From the NCBI RefSeq assembly GCF_006546655.1, contig NZ_VIAQ01000006.1, positions 248,001 through 312,000 of the forward strand: DNA of 64,000 nt, written 5' to 3'. Shown in pieces: positions 2,450 to 24,431 of the stretch. The first letter of the stretch is position 1; every line of letters starts with the position of its first letter. The DNA comes from Methanolobus vulcani (GTDB taxonomy: Archaea; Halobacteriota; Methanosarcinia; Methanosarcinales; Methanosarcinaceae). Below the pieces are notes generated by a model. It was not told where the DNA came from. It searched no databases and saw only the letters and a program-made list of their open reading frames with translations. Made by a program: the position numbers and the translations under genes.

Positions 2450-3853
2450 TTACTTCAACTGTCCCCTGAATTTCTCACAGCAGTTAATGTTGAGGTCAAG
2501 AAGCTTCTCTATATTCATCTTAGCTGCAATTCCCTTTGGAGCGCCTGCTACTGAAGTGATGACCCCTATACCAAGTTCTTCTCTCAGTTCCCTCATCACA
2601 TACTCATCACTGAGGTCATCTGTGGTTACGTCAAGTTTCTTTGCAACGTAATCCTTTGCATCTCCAATTCTCATGCTCTTTGCAAGCTGCATTCTTGCAA
2701 CAAGGTCACCTGCTGCTCTGATTCCGCTCATTCCGGAAGTCATTATGTGGGAGATCGGCATACCCATCGGGTCGCCGACCCCTATCTATATACCATCGAC
2801 ACCGGCAATTTCAACCATCGCCTTGCTGGCTCTTGATACAGCATCAATAGTCGGAGTCTCAAACATCGGGATACTACCGACACCCATTCCCATGTTTACA
2901 TGACATGGTATTGGTGAAGCCTTAACAGCTGCCTTGATGAATGTAACAGCTCTTCCAAGGTTCCATGCTGAGGATTTGCTTGTGTTTGTGTTAACAACAG
3001 GTCCGAAAACGTTTGCTCCTGCCTTTGCAGCAAGTGGAGCCTGCTGGTGTGGCCACAGACCTGCAAGTACTGTGCCATCATATTCCATTTCACCGTGCAG
3101 ACCAAGCAGAAGTTCTCCTGCCATTCCTGCTTCAATATAGATATCAGGATACTGCTTCCTCAATGCTTCAATTGCGTGGAGTGATGCATACATGTCACCA
3201 TCGCCTGCTGCACCGATAGTATCAAAGTTAACACCGTCAGCACCTGAAGCCATAAGCCTCTGCATGATCCAGACTGTGTCCCTTGTAAGGTGTTCAGCTG
3301 CATGCTGCATGGATTCCTGAGCTTCCTGAATTTTGAAAGCCTTCATAAGATCACCCGGATTAGGGAAGGGACCATCGGGTGTGTAGTAAAGACCCATGTT
3401 AGGCATTGCACCGTAGAGAAGAGGAACGACCATGTTGGCCTGGCAGACTTCCATTGTCTGCATCTCCTGTGCAATTACTGGTTTTACTGGTTTGTAACTG
3501 TAGTCGATATGACCGAGTTCCATTGTGTCAGCACCGAATGCACGCTCGTGCATCATTGCACCAACAAGCCTGCTGGATGGAATACCTACACCACTGTTAC
3601 CCTGGTCACCATCAATTCTGATTGTTCCGATATCGTGGGTTACAGGTACTTCTTTACCCTGTTCGACACCAACCATTCTTGAAGGCATAGTGACAATCTC
3701 AACAAGCTTGTCGATCTCATCTTCACTGAGATCAGGAATTTCACCAAGGTCGGCAGCATCTGCCATACCTTCTTTCAGGTCAGCGATAATCTGCTCCTTT
3801 GTCATGAAGATGCGCTTTCCATCTCCCATTCTCAATTTATATTCAGTTGCCAT
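2450..3853 (-). CDS. mtbB: Dimethylamine:corrinoid methyltransferase MtbB (pyrrolysine protein)
   Basis: Transfers a methyl group from dimethylamine to the Co(I) corrinoid of MtbC. The gene is read through an in-frame UAG at 2786-2788, codon 356, giving 467 residues; family MtbB proteins have this length and Pyl356. Conserved blocks occur on both sides of the UAG and the frame does not shift, so this is recoding and not a broken gene. The downstream part begins O-I-G-V-G-D-P-M-G. It lies 13 bp after mtbC in the same operon. The stop is TAA. Annotation pipelines that ignore Pyl would split it into a 355-residue and a 105-residue piece. Confidence 0.97.
2769..2788 (-). other. mtbB Pyl codon and PYLIS-like hairpin
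   Basis: UAG (2786-2788, minus strand) is followed four bases later by GGGTC-GGC-GACCC (2769-2781), a perfect 5-bp stem with a 3-nt loop. An alternative stem ACCC-GAT-GGGT overlaps its 3' side. Structures of this kind downstream of Pyl codons have been called PYLIS; in Methanosarcina they are not strictly required for decoding. Confidence 0.8.
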
Positions 3854-3866
3854 GATAATGCCTCCC

Positions 3867-4496
3867 TTAAAGCAGAAGCTCCTTTGCTTTTACAACAGCT
3901 TCACTTGCATTCTCTGCATAGCAGTCTGCACCGATCTTTTCAGCCCATGCCTGGGTTGCAGGAGCACCACCGACCATGACCTTTACTTTGTCCCGAAGAC
4001 CCTGCTCCTTAAGCATTTCGATGACTTCTTTCTGACCAGGCAATGTGGTCGTCATAAGAGCAGACATACCCACCATGTTTGCATTGGTTTCATTGATCTT
4101 GTCAACGAAGTCCTGAAGTGGGACATCTCTGCCAATGTCATGGACCTCAAAACCTGCAGACTGGAGCATTGTGGACACGATGGATTTACCGATGTCATGC
4201 ACATCTCCTTCAACGGTACCATTAACAATGACACCGAGTTTCTTACTTACTGCATCCTTTGGCATGTCTGCCTCAAGGAGTGCAACACCTTCTTCCATTG
4301 CGCCTGCTGCCATCATTACGTGAGGAAGGAATAACTTACCTCTTTCAAAAAGCACACCTACTTCGTTCATTCCTGCTGCAAGACCCTTCTCTATGATCTC
4401 AGGTGCAGGGATACCTTCACCCTTTGCTTTCTCAACGGCTGCTGTTACAACATCTTTTTTACATGTGACAACAGCGTCGGAGAGTTCTTTGAACAT
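3867..4496 (-). CDS. mtbC: Dimethylamine corrinoid protein MtbC
   Basis: 209 residues: an N-terminal helical cap domain (about 1-85) followed by a B12-binding Rossmann domain. The cobalt ligand motif D-x-H-x-x-G is seen as [11 protein letters not shown] near residue 100, with the GG motif (MVGGAP) near 175. It accepts the methyl group from MtbB and donates it to MtbA. It is the first gene of the mtbC-mtbB-permease unit; an SD-like GGAGGTATT precedes the ATG. It is clearly related to MtmC at 13289. Its neighbour MtbB, not MtmB, assigns the substrate. Confidence 0.95.
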
Positions 4497-4576
4497 TTCT
4501 TCGTTGCTAATAATAATACCTCCATACTTTTTGCCTTCAGTTCATGATAGAGAAATTCAGACTTGAAGAGCAATCA

Positions 4577-5104: not shown

Positions 5105-6646
5105 TTATTCTTCTACCGGAACAAGTTCGGGTTCAAATATACCATGCTCTCTGTGTACTGCACTAGCAGCAGGCATTCTGTTCCTGTTCTCACGCTGTGA
5201 GTATATCCAGAGTGGGATGAAGAGACAGAGCATGAAAAACCCGACACCTGTTGTCGCCCATCCAAGTTCAAGACTGTTGAGGTAGATGATACCGATCAGG
5301 AAGAACGGGGTGTTCAGAATGGTGGTTGCCAGAGCAACACTCTTCCATCCTCTTGGAGCCTTGAAAGGTCTTTCCAGCCTGGACAGTTCAGGGTCGTTCC
5401 TGACCTTTACATAGGTGTAAAGACTGATACCATTGGCACAGATGTAACCGATTGCAGAGGCTGCAAGGATAGCTGTTGGTGTTCCAAGAAGAATTAAACA
5501 CATGTTGAAACCTGCATCAGCGATCATTGCGTTCATTGGATGTCCGTGTTTATTCAACTTACTCAGAACTGATGGCAGATTACCTTCAACTGACATTGAA
5601 TATATGGAACGTGCAGATGAAAGGAAAGCCGTCTGGATGATCAGAAGCATTGCACCAATCAACATTACAATTGAAATTGAAGCACCAATAGGACCAAGTG
5701 CCATGTTTGCCAGTGGAAGCATGGGTGAGATAGGTTCTGCAAGAACTCCGTCAACTCCAAGAGCTCCAATTACAGATGTCTGTACAAGTACGTAAAGAAC
5801 AAGGCATATTGCTCCACAAACAAGCAGTGCTTTTGGTATATCTGAATTTGGCTTCTTGTATTCAGGACCATAGATAGCAGCTGTTTCCCATGCAGCAGCA
5901 CTCCATTCAGCCATTGCAAGAAGTCCGAGAAGGATCAGTATGTGTTCCCAGTCCCAGCTCCAGTCAGTCGGGAACCATGAACTTGTGATATTTGACATCT
6001 GGAAATCGCCTGTGAAGAATGGTGCAATGGTGATGACCAGAAGAGGTATCAGGGAAATAACAGCTAAGATCATTCCAGCGGCTGCTCCGTTCTTAAGTCC
6101 CTTTGAATTAATGATTGCAAGGGAACCGAAGATGAAAACTCCTACTACCAATGCCATAAGTGTTGAGTTGATACCTGCTAGAGCCGGGACCATTCCCTGA
6201 ACGTAGCTGGATATCAGTATTGCGTAAATTGCAAGAACAGGACTCCATCCAAACCAGTAACTCCAGGCACTGAAACCACCTATGAACTTACCGAACTTGA
6301 ACTTTCCTCTGTTATTCTTGTCTTTATCTGAACCAAAGACTGTCTGTGTATAACCAGGAAGACCTGATGCCTTGGGAAAGACTGTTGCCAGTTCTCCGAA
6401 CGCGAAGTTCTGTAAAAAACCAAGAAGAACCGTTGCTCCCCATATTACTATTGCAAAGGACCAGACATAGCTTGTAAGGTATCCGATGGAAGGTAGGATA
6501 AGCAGAGGAACACCCAGTGCTATTGCAAGACCCTGTTTCCAGTCAATGGATCTCTCAAGTTCCTGAGGATCACATATATTTTTAGCGCATTGAGCACCAT
6601 GTTCCCAATCGATACCTGACTGAGACGTCTCAGCTTTATTGCTCAT
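5105..6646 (-). CDS. APC-superfamily permease, paralog of the DMA-operon permease
   Basis: 513 residues, about 12 membrane segments, closely similar throughout to the permease at 843, including the N-terminal GIDW..H..QC and LERSIDWKQGLAI motifs. The start chosen is the ATG at 6646: GAGGTGG precedes it by six bases and the paralog begins at the same point; a longer reading to 6757 would add 37 residues with no homology and no SD. The ATG overlaps (ATGA) the TGA of an upstream short reading frame that contains a UAG. Probable methylamine transporter; substrate not determinable. Confidence 0.87.
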   Translation of the reverse strand: MSNKAETSQSGIDWEHGAQCAKNICDPQELERSIDWKQGLAIALGVPLLILPSIGYLTSYVWSFAIVIWGATVLLGFLQNFAFGELATVFPKASGLPGYTQTVFGSDKDKNNRGKFKFGKFIGGFSAWSYWFGWSPVLAIYAILISSYVQGMVPALAGINSTLMALVVGVFIFGSLAIINSKGLKNGAAAGMILAVISLIPLLVITIAPFFTGDFQMSNITSSWFPTDWSWDWEHILILLGLLAMAEWSAAAWETAAIYGPEYKKPNSDIPKALLVCGAICLVLYVLVQTSVIGALGVDGVLAEPISPMLPLANMALGPIGASISIVMLIGAMLLIIQTAFLSSARSIYSMSVEGNLPSVLSKLNKHGHPMNAMIADAGFNMCLILLGTPTAILAASAIGYICANGISLYTYVKVRNDPELSRLERPFKAPRGWKSVALATTILNTPFFLIGIIYLNSLELGWATTGVGFFMLCLFIPLWIYSQRENRNRMPAASAVHREHGIFEPELVPVEE

Positions 6647-6792
6647 GCACCCACCTCTGGACAATTCAGGTCTGTTCTCCAGGAAAGAGGCGTACCCATC
6701 GGGTAGCCGGTTCCTGCCTATATTCCAGCCATGGGACAATGCTCGTGGACAATACAATCCACAGATTCGTTCAAAATGATGATTTTGTTCAT
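6643..6792 (-). CDS. Leader reading frame with in-frame UAG, coupled to permease (candidate Pyl peptide)
   Basis: AAGGTGG lies four bases before an ATG at 6792. The frame runs 24 codons (Cys13, His16, His18, Cys19 clustered), meets UAG at 6718-6720 (codon 25), then 24 more codons and a TGA at 6643-6645 overlapping the permease ATG as ATGA. Residues 23-37 read GI-O-AGTGYPMGTPLS; the Pyl site of MtbB reads [15 protein letters not shown]. From the UAG on, 29 of 39 bases match mtbB. A stem TACCC-GAT-GGGTA (6693-6705) follows the UAG. Known: UAG can be Pyl in this organism. Inferred: read-through would carry ribosomes to the permease start, making permease synthesis depend on Pyl-tRNA. Alternatives: a 24-residue leader ending at UAG, or a relic of mtbB. 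Confidence 0.65.
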
Positions 6793-6859
6793 TCTACCAC
6801 CTTAGTGATTAAAAGTAACCTACCTGAACGATAAATATATATGCGATTTCAGGCACGAT

Positions 6860-6921
6860 ACTTATATTTTACGGATATACTATTCCTAGCACTTATATTT
6901 AAAAATAACGGACATAGTATT
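6860..6921. repeat. Tandem direct repeat in the leader/permease promoter region
   Basis: Two imperfect copies at 6860-6884 and 6891-6921 share ACTTATATTT, then ACGGA(T/C)ATA(C/G)TATT, the second with a 6-bp insertion. On the minus strand each contains a TATA-like AAATATAAGT, 70-130 bp upstream of the leader ATG. They may be duplicated promoters or a two-site operator. Confidence 0.5.
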
Positions 6922-20071: not shown

Positions 20072-21442
<1,371 letters not shown>

Positions 21443-21451
21443 GGTAGAACC

Positions 21452-22543
21452 ATGATAAAGGACATTAATTACCGGGATCTTGACATTATTGCTGATAATA
21501 TAATAAACGGACAGAAGCTCACCGATGATAACCTTAGAGAGCTTCTTTCCCTGACAGAAGAAGAAGACATAGAGAAGCTTCAATACGTTGCAAGAAAAGT
21601 GAGAGACCACTATTTCGGGAACAGGGTATTCCTCTATAGTTTCGTTTACTTCTCAACGCATTGCAAGAACAACTGTGCTTTCTGTTACTACAACAGGTGC
21701 AACGAAATACAGCGCTATCGCCTTAATCTGGAAGAGATCCGCAGCATAGCACGAGCAATCAAGAACGAGACCATCCACATGGTAGATCTTACCATGGGCG
21801 AGGACCCTTATTTCCATAATAATCCTGAAAAGTTCATTGATGTTGTAAAGGCAGTAAAGGAAGAAACCGGACTTCCAATTATGATATCACCTGGTGTTAT
21901 GGATGACAGGACACTCAGCAGACTGCATGAGAACGGAGCAAATTTCCTTGCACTCTACCAGGAAACACATGATAAGGAACTCTACCGGAAACTGAGGGTC
22001 GGACAATCCTTCGATGAGAGGAATCATGCCAGGGAATTTGCCAGAACCAACGGTTACTGTGTTGAGGATGGAATCCTCACAGGTGTTGGAAATGATATTG
22101 AATCTACAATAATCTCCCTTCGTGGAATGCAAAAGGGACAACCTGATATGGTTCGTGTTATGACCTTTGTTCCACAGGAAGGAACTCCTCTTGAACAGGT
22201 ATCACAGGAATCCAGCCTCTCCGAGCTCAAGATAATCTCAGTTCTCAGACTGATGTTCCCTGATAAACTCATACCAGCATCCCTTGACCTTGAAGGAATC
22301 GATGGCATGGTGGACCGCCTGAATGCAGGTGCAAATGTTGTCACATCTATAATATCCGCAGATTCCTCACTTGAAGGCGTTGTCAACTATGACAGGGAAC
22401 TTGAAGAAAGGGACAGGGACTCAAAAAGTGTAATCAGACGCCTGAGGACTATGGGAATGGAACCAGCAAGCCAGGCTGAATTCAACAGGATCATAGAAAA
22501 ACAGCAGGGAACCCCAATAAGAATCCCGGTGGCTGCACTATGA
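21452..22543 (+). CDS. pylB: Methylornithine synthase PylB (radical SAM)
   Basis: 363 residues. The radical SAM motif C-x3-C-x2-C is seen as CKNNCAFCYY near residue 70-77. It rearranges L-lysine to 3-methyl-D-ornithine, the first step of Pyl synthesis. GAGGTAG precedes the ATG; the gene starts nine bases after pylS and its end overlaps pylC by four bases (ATGA). Confidence 0.97.
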   Translation: MIKDINYRDLDIIADNIINGQKLTDDNLRELLSLTEEEDIEKLQYVARKVRDHYFGNRVFLYSFVYFSTHCKNNCAFCYYNRCNEIQRYRLNLEEIRSIARAIKNETIHMVDLTMGEDPYFHNNPEKFIDVVKAVKEETGLPIMISPGVMDDRTLSRLHENGANFLALYQETHDKELYRKLRVGQSFDERNHAREFARTNGYCVEDGILTGVGNDIESTIISLRGMQKGQPDMVRVMTFVPQEGTPLEQVSQESSLSELKIISVLRLMFPDKLIPASLDLEGIDGMVDRLNAGANVVTSIISADSSLEGVVNYDRELEERDRDSKSVIRRLRTMGMEPASQAEFNRIIEKQQGTPIRIPVAAL

Positions 22544-23643
22544 CAACAATATGCATAATAGGTGGCAAGCTACAGGGTTTTGAGGTCACTTACCTTGCAC
22601 ACAAGGCAGGTATGGATGTCGTACTTGTTGACCGCAGGGAAAAGCCCCTTATACGCAAGGTTGTCGATGATTTTCACTGCTTTGATGTTGTCAAGGAACC
22701 TGAAAAACTCATCGAACTCTCAAAAAACGTGGATACTATAATTCCTGTGAATGAGAACCTTGAGACAATAGAGTTCCTCAGGAGTGTAAAGGACAAGCTT
22801 GCATGTCCCGTACTCTTTGACTTCGATGCCTATCACATCAGCATGGACAAGAAGCGTTCCAAGGACTATTTCAAGTCAATTGACATCCCAGCTCCTGCTG
22901 ATAAACCAACCAAGCCTCCATATTTCGTAAAACCACCTTGTGAGAGCAGCAGCATCGGGACATCTATAATATATGATAACGAGGGTCTGGAAGGACTTGA
23001 CCCCTCAATGCTCATCGAGGAATATGTTGAAGGCGATGTTATTTCTCTTGAGGTAATTGGTGACGGAACTCATTTTGCAGTTGTTAAAGAAACGAAGATA
23101 CACATCGATGATACCTACGACTGCCACATGGTGACACCTATCGATAATTATCCTGAGTTCAGGAAGATTACCTATGAGCTCGCTAAGAACCTCAATCTCC
23201 GGGGAATTATGGACGTTGAAGCAATAGACAGCCCCAGGGGACTTAAGGTACTGGAAATAGATGCAAGATTCCCTAGCCAGACACCCACAGCCGTTTACCA
23301 TTCTACAGGAGTTAACCTTGTGGAAATGCTCATGCAGGCGTTTTTGGGAGAAGTCCAGGAAACTAACATGGTTCCTGAGACTAACTATTGCATCTACGAG
23401 CACCTTTTGCTTGAAAATGGAGAGCTAAAACCTGTTGGTGAGCATGTGCTCTCACAGGGAGACGAATACGTACAGTTCCACGAGTCAGAAGGACTTGAAA
23501 TATTCGAGTCCAGAGGAGATAACAAAGATAGCGTTTTCACCCTGATAAGCTATGGAACCGACAGAGAAGAGACTGAAAAGATAAGACAGAATGGAATGGA
23601 AATGATCATCGGTCATTTCATGAACAGAGAACAGGAGGAATAA
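22540..23643 (+). CDS. pylC: Pyrrolysine biosynthesis ligase PylC
   Basis: 367 residues of the ATP-grasp family: N-terminal nucleotide-binding fold (CIIGGKLQGFEVTYLA), ATP-grasp core with KPP and LIEEYVEGDV, and the metal-binding EIDARFPSQTPTA. It joins 3-methylornithine to a second lysine through its epsilon amine. Translationally coupled to pylB by ATGA overlap; pylD follows after two bases. Confidence 0.97.
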   Translation: MTTICIIGGKLQGFEVTYLAHKAGMDVVLVDRREKPLIRKVVDDFHCFDVVKEPEKLIELSKNVDTIIPVNENLETIEFLRSVKDKLACPVLFDFDAYHISMDKKRSKDYFKSIDIPAPADKPTKPPYFVKPPCESSSIGTSIIYDNEGLEGLDPSMLIEEYVEGDVISLEVIGDGTHFAVVKETKIHIDDTYDCHMVTPIDNYPEFRKITYELAKNLNLRGIMDVEAIDSPRGLKVLEIDARFPSQTPTAVYHSTGVNLVEMLMQAFLGEVQETNMVPETNYCIYEHLLLENGELKPVGEHVLSQGDEYVQFHESEGLEIFESRGDNKDSVFTLISYGTDREETEKIRQNGMEMIIGHFMNREQEE

Positions 23644-23645
23644 AA

Positions 23646-24431
23646 ATGGCACTTTTAACACCGGAAGACCTTGAGAACCTTTCAATGCAACTTGAAGAGA
23701 ATGATGAGATTGCAAAAAAAGTCACAGGTCTTGATATAAGAGGTATATGCAAAGCACTATACGATACAGAGCCCGGTACTGAAAAAGTAGGAATCATTCC
23801 AATCACCGCTGGCAATGGTGTCATCAGTAACTTCACATCGTCACTCCTGTTCATAGTCCGGTATTTCGGCTTTGAAGGTTTCATAACAGAACACCCGGAT
23901 GTCACAGGTTATTATGAAGCTGTTTCTCAGGGTGCTGATATCATAATGATGGCGGATGACCACATCTTCACTGCCCACAACCTGAGGAATGAAAAAATAG
24001 TGAGCAACCACGTTGCAACAGGTGTAATCTATGCAGATATCGCTTCAAGATTCCAGGAAGCCACATCAAAGGATATACTTGTTATCGGACTCGGAAGAGT
24101 TGGTTATGCAGGAGCCTGCCATCTTGTGAACAAGGGATTCAATGTCTACGCATGCGACCCGAACAAGGAATTCCTGCACAAAGCCGTGAATGAACTTGGA
24201 ATCAAGCCCTATTGCAGTGATGACAGGAAGAAATTCTCAATGGTCTTTGAGGCAACACCAAATGCAGACACCATATCCGAAGGTATGATCGAGGAAAGGT
24301 GCCTAGTCTCAACTCCGGGGATTCCATGCGGACTTCCACCTGAAATCGGACAAAAATATCATGTTGACCTTGTAATGGAGCCACTTGTAATAGGAGTGGC
24401 TTCAATGCTGTATTCTGTAATCCAGAATTAA
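23646..24431 (+). CDS. pylD: Pyrrolysine synthase PylD
   Basis: 261 residues with a Rossmann NAD-binding fold (VIGLGRVGYAGA, about residues 142-155). It oxidises lysyl-N-epsilon-3-methylornithine and closes the pyrroline ring, the last step of Pyl synthesis. Starts two bases after pylC with GGAGGAAT as SD. Confidence 0.97.
   Translation: MALLTPEDLENLSMQLEENDEIAKKVTGLDIRGICKALYDTEPGTEKVGIIPITAGNGVISNFTSSLLFIVRYFGFEGFITEHPDVTGYYEAVSQGADIIMMADDHIFTAHNLRNEKIVSNHVATGVIYADIASRFQEATSKDILVIGLGRVGYAGACHLVNKGFNVYACDPNKEFLHKAVNELGIKPYCSDDRKKFSMVFEATPNADTISEGMIEERCLVSTPGIPCGLPPEIGQKYHVDLVMEPLVIGVASMLYSVIQN

Follow-up and report, generated by a model that had tools for sequence, protein, structure and literature searches.

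We analysed a 64,000-nt stretch of Methanolobus vulcani DNA (the window), in which permA, the gene of a putative methylamine permease, is preceded by a 49-codon frame with an in-frame UAG. On balance we think it probable that this conserved and probably translated leader is a translational coupler gated by pyrrolysine (Pyl), derived from a collapsed mtbC-mtbB operon. Translation of the leader, read-through of its UAG and the regulatory outcome are what we infer from sequence comparison; on this basis, the permease may be made efficiently only if the cell can make pyrrolysine.

A short frame with an in-frame UAG overlaps the start of permA

The leader (6643-6792) is on the minus strand, as are its elements, permA, mtbC and mtbB. 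Read from 6792 to 6643, its translation is MNKIIILNESVDCIVHEHCPMAGI-O-AGTGYPMGTPLSWRTDLNCPEVGA*, where the UAG, pyrrolysine or stop, is codon 25 (6718-6720). The TGA that ends the frame (6645-6643) and the ATG of the permease (6646-6644) form an ATGA, a 4-nt overlap at 6643-6646. The original prediction had described the frame, its UAG and this overlap, all of which were confirmed in the sequence. A Shine-Dalgarno (SD)-like AAGGTGG (6797-6803) stands 4 nt 5' of the leader ATG and is retained in the homologues of the leader as GAGGT or AAGGTG. The permease has an SD of its own, GAGGTGG (6651-6657), within the 3' end of the leader, of which GGTG is invariant. Further upstream, CCGTAAAATATAAG (6861-6874) is a putative BRE/TATA promoter element of a leader-permease transcript; it is conserved at six of the seven leader loci and is not clear at the remaining one (G061).

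On the minus strand the genes run mtmC-mtmB-permease-small genes-mtbA-[leader-permA]-mtbC-mtbB-mtbP. The product of permA (5105-6646) is an APC-family permease (Pfam PF13520, E 6e-47); its best NCBIfam model is a TMAO permease, with a score far under the cut-off, and the gene neighbourhood suggests that methylamines are its substrates. The gene mtbC (3867-4511), for the dimethylamine corrinoid protein (NCBIfam NF041607, over the cut-off), has a start that resembles that of the leader, and mtbB (2450-3853), for the Pyl-containing dimethylamine methyltransferase (TIGR02368; Dimeth_Pyl), carries a PYLIS_2 element at 2788-2689 (RF02509, 112.4 bits). Genes resembling pylS, pylB, pylC and pylD, named from their sequences and gene order, are found at 20090-24431, and a tRNA-Pyl-like sequence lies about 7.5 kb beyond the window.

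Two further observations concern these neighbours. The mtbC gene of the window apparently starts at AUU (4511-4509), with an SD GGAGGT followed by ATT AGC AAC GAA GAA ATG; 21 nt separate the SD from its first ATG, and the alignment with Methanosarcina MtbC covers the extra residues. The mtbC genes of the genomes G043, G060 and G062 appear to start in the same way, and the leader has ATG at that position. Between mtbA and the leader are two small frames, 7736-7617 and 7395-7135, neither with a Pfam match; the former shows 79-84% identity in G042, G060 and G062, and relatives of the latter are also present behind permA in G060, G062, G063 and G051.

Probable origin of the leader from a collapsed mtbC-mtbB operon

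Directly behind mtbB is where permA stands in the g5 genomes and in most Methanosarcina. The order mtbC-mtbB-permA is found in M. profundi Mob M (G043), and the order leader-permA, with matching flanks on both sides, in G046, G058 and G061. The leader appears to be what is left of such an operon, in which the ribosome-binding site and first codons of mtbC would have been joined in frame to the Pyl codon of mtbB and its first PYLIS_2 stem-loop. We compared the UAG region with all 60-nt stretches of four loci by position-specific scoring, and outside the leaders nothing matched codons 17-36 as well as the mtbB Pyl site, at 34-41 bits versus at most 4 for other stretches. The original prediction had counted 29 matches in 39 bases to the mtbB Pyl site; this count holds if the UAG itself is included, and the likeness goes beyond the peptide, extending to an RNA hairpin of the PYLIS_2 type.

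The mtbC-like part is codons 2-16 (6745-6789). It is recognizable in clade 2 (G046, G061, G063), the more conservative of the leader clades, for which the window's mtbC start and that of G043 come first and third among 165,822 positions; in clade 1, which includes the window leader, the likeness has been lost. When the SD is included, another gene start of the window scores about equally, so that this form of the test is nonspecific on its own. A permease tree is compatible with a single origin of the leader. In the free tree G043 falls among the leader carriers, and an AU test does not reject a clade of these carriers without it (p 0.09). At this node the direction of change is therefore read from the Methanosarcina arrangement. 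Codons 36-49 were also compared with the 3' end of mtbB and with the mtbB-permA spacer, a homology that we rejected: only the SD motif matches, and shuffle p values range from 0.04 to 0.98. This negative result for the 3' part counts against our reading of the leader.

Other reductions were observed in the family. Upstream of permA, the Methanosarcina genome G081 (L075) carries an in-frame mtbC'-'mtbB fusion of 39 aa without UAG; this independent fusion indicates that such collapses occur and need not retain the UAG. In M. vulcani PL 12/M (G063) the region between permA and mtbP (L079 4370-4640) has lost a second mtbC-mtbB pair, of which 19 mtbC codons are left, with no UAG leader there. Among mtmB-like short Pyl frames, none was clearly leader-like; G044 has two reduced mtmB-like frames with a Pyl codon, at C1:1650195 (232 aa) and 1681299 (153 aa), which are perhaps pseudogenes. 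A search of plasmids gave no match.

The architecture of the leader is maintained in seven Methanolobus genomes

Profile searching of 112 genomes of the family revealed seven full-length homologues, all in Methanolobus and all located before permA. Every one of them has 49 codons with TAG at codon 25, no indels and the ATGA overlap with the same permease, the arrangement of a translationally coupled gene pair; as in a pyrrolysine-encoding gene, the in-frame UAG is conserved between species and the frame stays open past it. GGAATATAG and the block GGCnACCCGATGGGTAyGCC are invariant, and neither the frame nor the overlap changes. The weaker matches within the family are chiefly mtbB Pyl sites, and when the search was extended to 393 genomes of the phylum nothing beyond the seven leaders reached E 0.001. 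Lack of conservation had been named as grounds for discarding the original prediction; the UAG, the frame, its mtbB-like context and the overlap are all kept in these seven genomes. The restriction to a single genus counts against a coupler, as does the presence of permA with neither leader nor mtbB in front in two nearby Methanolobus (G042, G051) and in G068.

We then consider what is being conserved. The dN/dS of the leader is about 0.75, versus about 0.05 for the permease in the same genome pairs, so the leader peptide is only weakly constrained; pooled pN/pS values are 0.79 for the whole leader, 0.75 before the UAG and 0.68 for codons 26-44 (the SD part left out). Of 4000 neutral simulations along the leader's own tree, none preserved the start, the UAG, an open frame and the stop at once. 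The part after the UAG, taken by itself, stayed open in 25% of them; this and the pN/pS of 0.68 there count against the coupler: the substitution pattern is not sufficient by itself to establish coding beyond the UAG. The architecture as a whole is maintained by evolution.

These figures bear on the possibility that the leader is a decaying relic, a remnant of the mtbC-mtbB deletion that persists through its promoter, UTR and ribosome-binding sites, its UAG acting as a plain stop or playing no part and the permease being served by its own SD. The derivation from mtbC-mtbB, the high dN/dS and the comparable deletions seen as a fusion in G081 and as 19 mtbC codons in M. vulcani PL 12/M are all in line with decay, but the start, UAG, open frame, overlapping stop and hairpin have been retained over about 120 substitutions in seven genomes without an indel, while nearby upstream sequence in the same genomes does have indels, and no neutral simulation preserved the combined features. 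We therefore regard simple decay as unlikely. Given the collapsed-operon origin, being a relic and being a leader are not exclusive.

The same substitution pattern makes it improbable that the product matters as a Pyl microprotein, a working 49-residue protein with one pyrrolysine, co-translated with the permease. The absence of indels and 18 residues invariant in six sequences (e.g., D12, V15, C19, G23-I-O and PMG) would suit such a protein, an option already raised in the original prediction and weakened by a dN/dS near 0.75 against 0.05 for the permease. Many of the invariant residues coincide with RNA elements (hairpin, SD, UAG context), and the leader has no match in Pfam or NCBIfam, the Dimeth_Pyl domain included. 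The Cys/His cluster proposed at residues 13-19 survives in part: C19 occurs in all seven leaders and H16 in six, but C13 and H18 are not conserved.

A PYLIS_2-like stem-loop follows the UAG

The invariant block folds into a stem-loop that starts 9 nt after the UAG, with its core at 6708-6689; with an outer stem (6714-6711/6685-6682), present in most species, the element spans 6682-6714. It folds in all seven leaders (z -2.4 to -3.6), and the corresponding site of mtbB also folds. In the core, 18 of 20 columns are invariant, versus 62 of the other 130 (p 0.0005). At base 88, mtbB has G and the two leader clades have A and U; the base is paired in all three, its partner having moved by one base. 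Covariation is suggestive but thin: two pairs are changed on both sides, a number equalled in most shuffles. A second hairpin, GTGGAT/GTCCAC, lies upstream of the UAG (columns 30-49; 6744-6763), with one pair altered on both sides from GC to AU.

Compared with 4227 Rfam families, PYLIS_2 (RF02509) was the best at the UAG in five of the seven leaders, at 21.7-27.0 bits, below the gathering score of 36; the window's own leader had no PYLIS_2 hit at E up to 1. The likeness to the mtbB element lies in the UAG at the first model position, the same first stem-loop and often identical codons. The leaders differ from it in lacking the second stem-loop, this part of the model being unaligned or poorly aligned, in their sub-gathering scores and in being short leaders instead of an enzyme gene.

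We also observed that the mtbB genes of Methanolobus and Methanosarcina have a strong stem-loop directly after the UAG that matches Rfam PYLIS_2. A 2010 review stated that nothing like the PYLIS of mtmB was visible in mtbB (PMC2933860).

An RNA switch, in which the position of the ribosome at the UAG would select between hairpins and hence free the permease SD or not, is very improbable: in the window, the permease SD is a possible alternative partner for the 3' arm of the PYLIS-like hairpin, but this pairing is not conserved, being conspicuous only in the window sequence, and the changes in SD accessibility are inconsistent across the seven leaders.

A possible pyrrolysine-gated coupling of leader and permease

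A Pyl-gated coupler would work as follows. When charged tRNA-Pyl is present, ribosomes would read through the UAG, terminate at the TGA that overlaps the permease ATG and start again on the permease. If pyrrolysine is scarce they would stop at the UAG, 71 nt short of the permease start, and reinitiation would be largely lost. Permease output would thus track how well the cell decodes UAG, perhaps as it once did from a position behind mtbB.

Published data give this scheme its footing. Archaeal ATGA overlaps couple translation tightly (PMC6728339), and in Haloferax volcanii a stop-to-start gap of 22-23 nt abolishes reinitiation, short overlaps being needed (PMC10666635). The leader shares with these termination-reinitiation systems the 4-nt overlap and the need for upstream translation to arrive there; it differs in that one codon of its upstream frame would mean pyrrolysine or stop according to the condition of the cell. 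At UAG, decoding and termination compete, and one bacterium inserts Pyl there only when it grows on trimethylamine (PMC8211752). Without its PYLIS, mtmB gave reduced but not abolished full-length product; that the element is nonessential for UAG reading in mtmB counts against the coupler (PMC2933860). Taken together, the ATGA coupling, the limit on reinitiation, the competition at UAG and the mtmB data favour a Pyl-dependent coupler over the other readings.

The coupling idea of the original prediction fits the archaeal overlap and reinitiation data and the 71-nt gap, but its claim that the permease would be made only when the methylamine enzymes can be made is too strong. The permease SD at 6657-6651, inside the leader end, allows an independent start and counts against the coupler; because of it, the gate may be partial and the effect graded. 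More tentatively, and with somewhat less confidence than in the coupler itself, we suggest that the leader could be a natural pyrrolysine sensor, an operon shrunk to a start, a UAG and a PYLIS hairpin that would make permease synthesis dependent on UAG decoding.

Relation to known systems and implications

Pyrrolysine codons are known mainly in methylamine methyltransferases, where they encode a catalytic residue. In bacterial biosynthetic operons, short amino-acid-sensing leaders let one charged tRNA control the gene behind them, and in the E. coli selAB mRNA leader a SECIS-like element binds SelB and represses. The methanogen leader resembles the former in being a short leader, probably translated, that would depend on one charged tRNA; it differs in that no conserved attenuator was found and that pyrrolysine would be sensed through a recoded stop. 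With selAB it shares the relocation of a recoding element into a regulatory leader, and it differs in that the proposed gate is an in-frame stop codon. Among open-licence papers, judged mostly by title and abstract, we found none that describes a pyrrolysine codon in a regulatory leader. Leader, coupling and PYLIS are each known; their combination appears to be new.

That evolution retains a UAG and its hairpin while the peptide is hardly constrained suggests that the 22nd amino acid serves regulation here. If the coupler is real, an archaeon would be regulating a gene by recoding an amber codon, with translational coupling as the link. The leader further suggests how an enzyme operon may shrink into a regulatory leader, and it is a small natural system in which to test how these archaea tune UAG reading and whether PYLIS-type hairpins matter in the cell.
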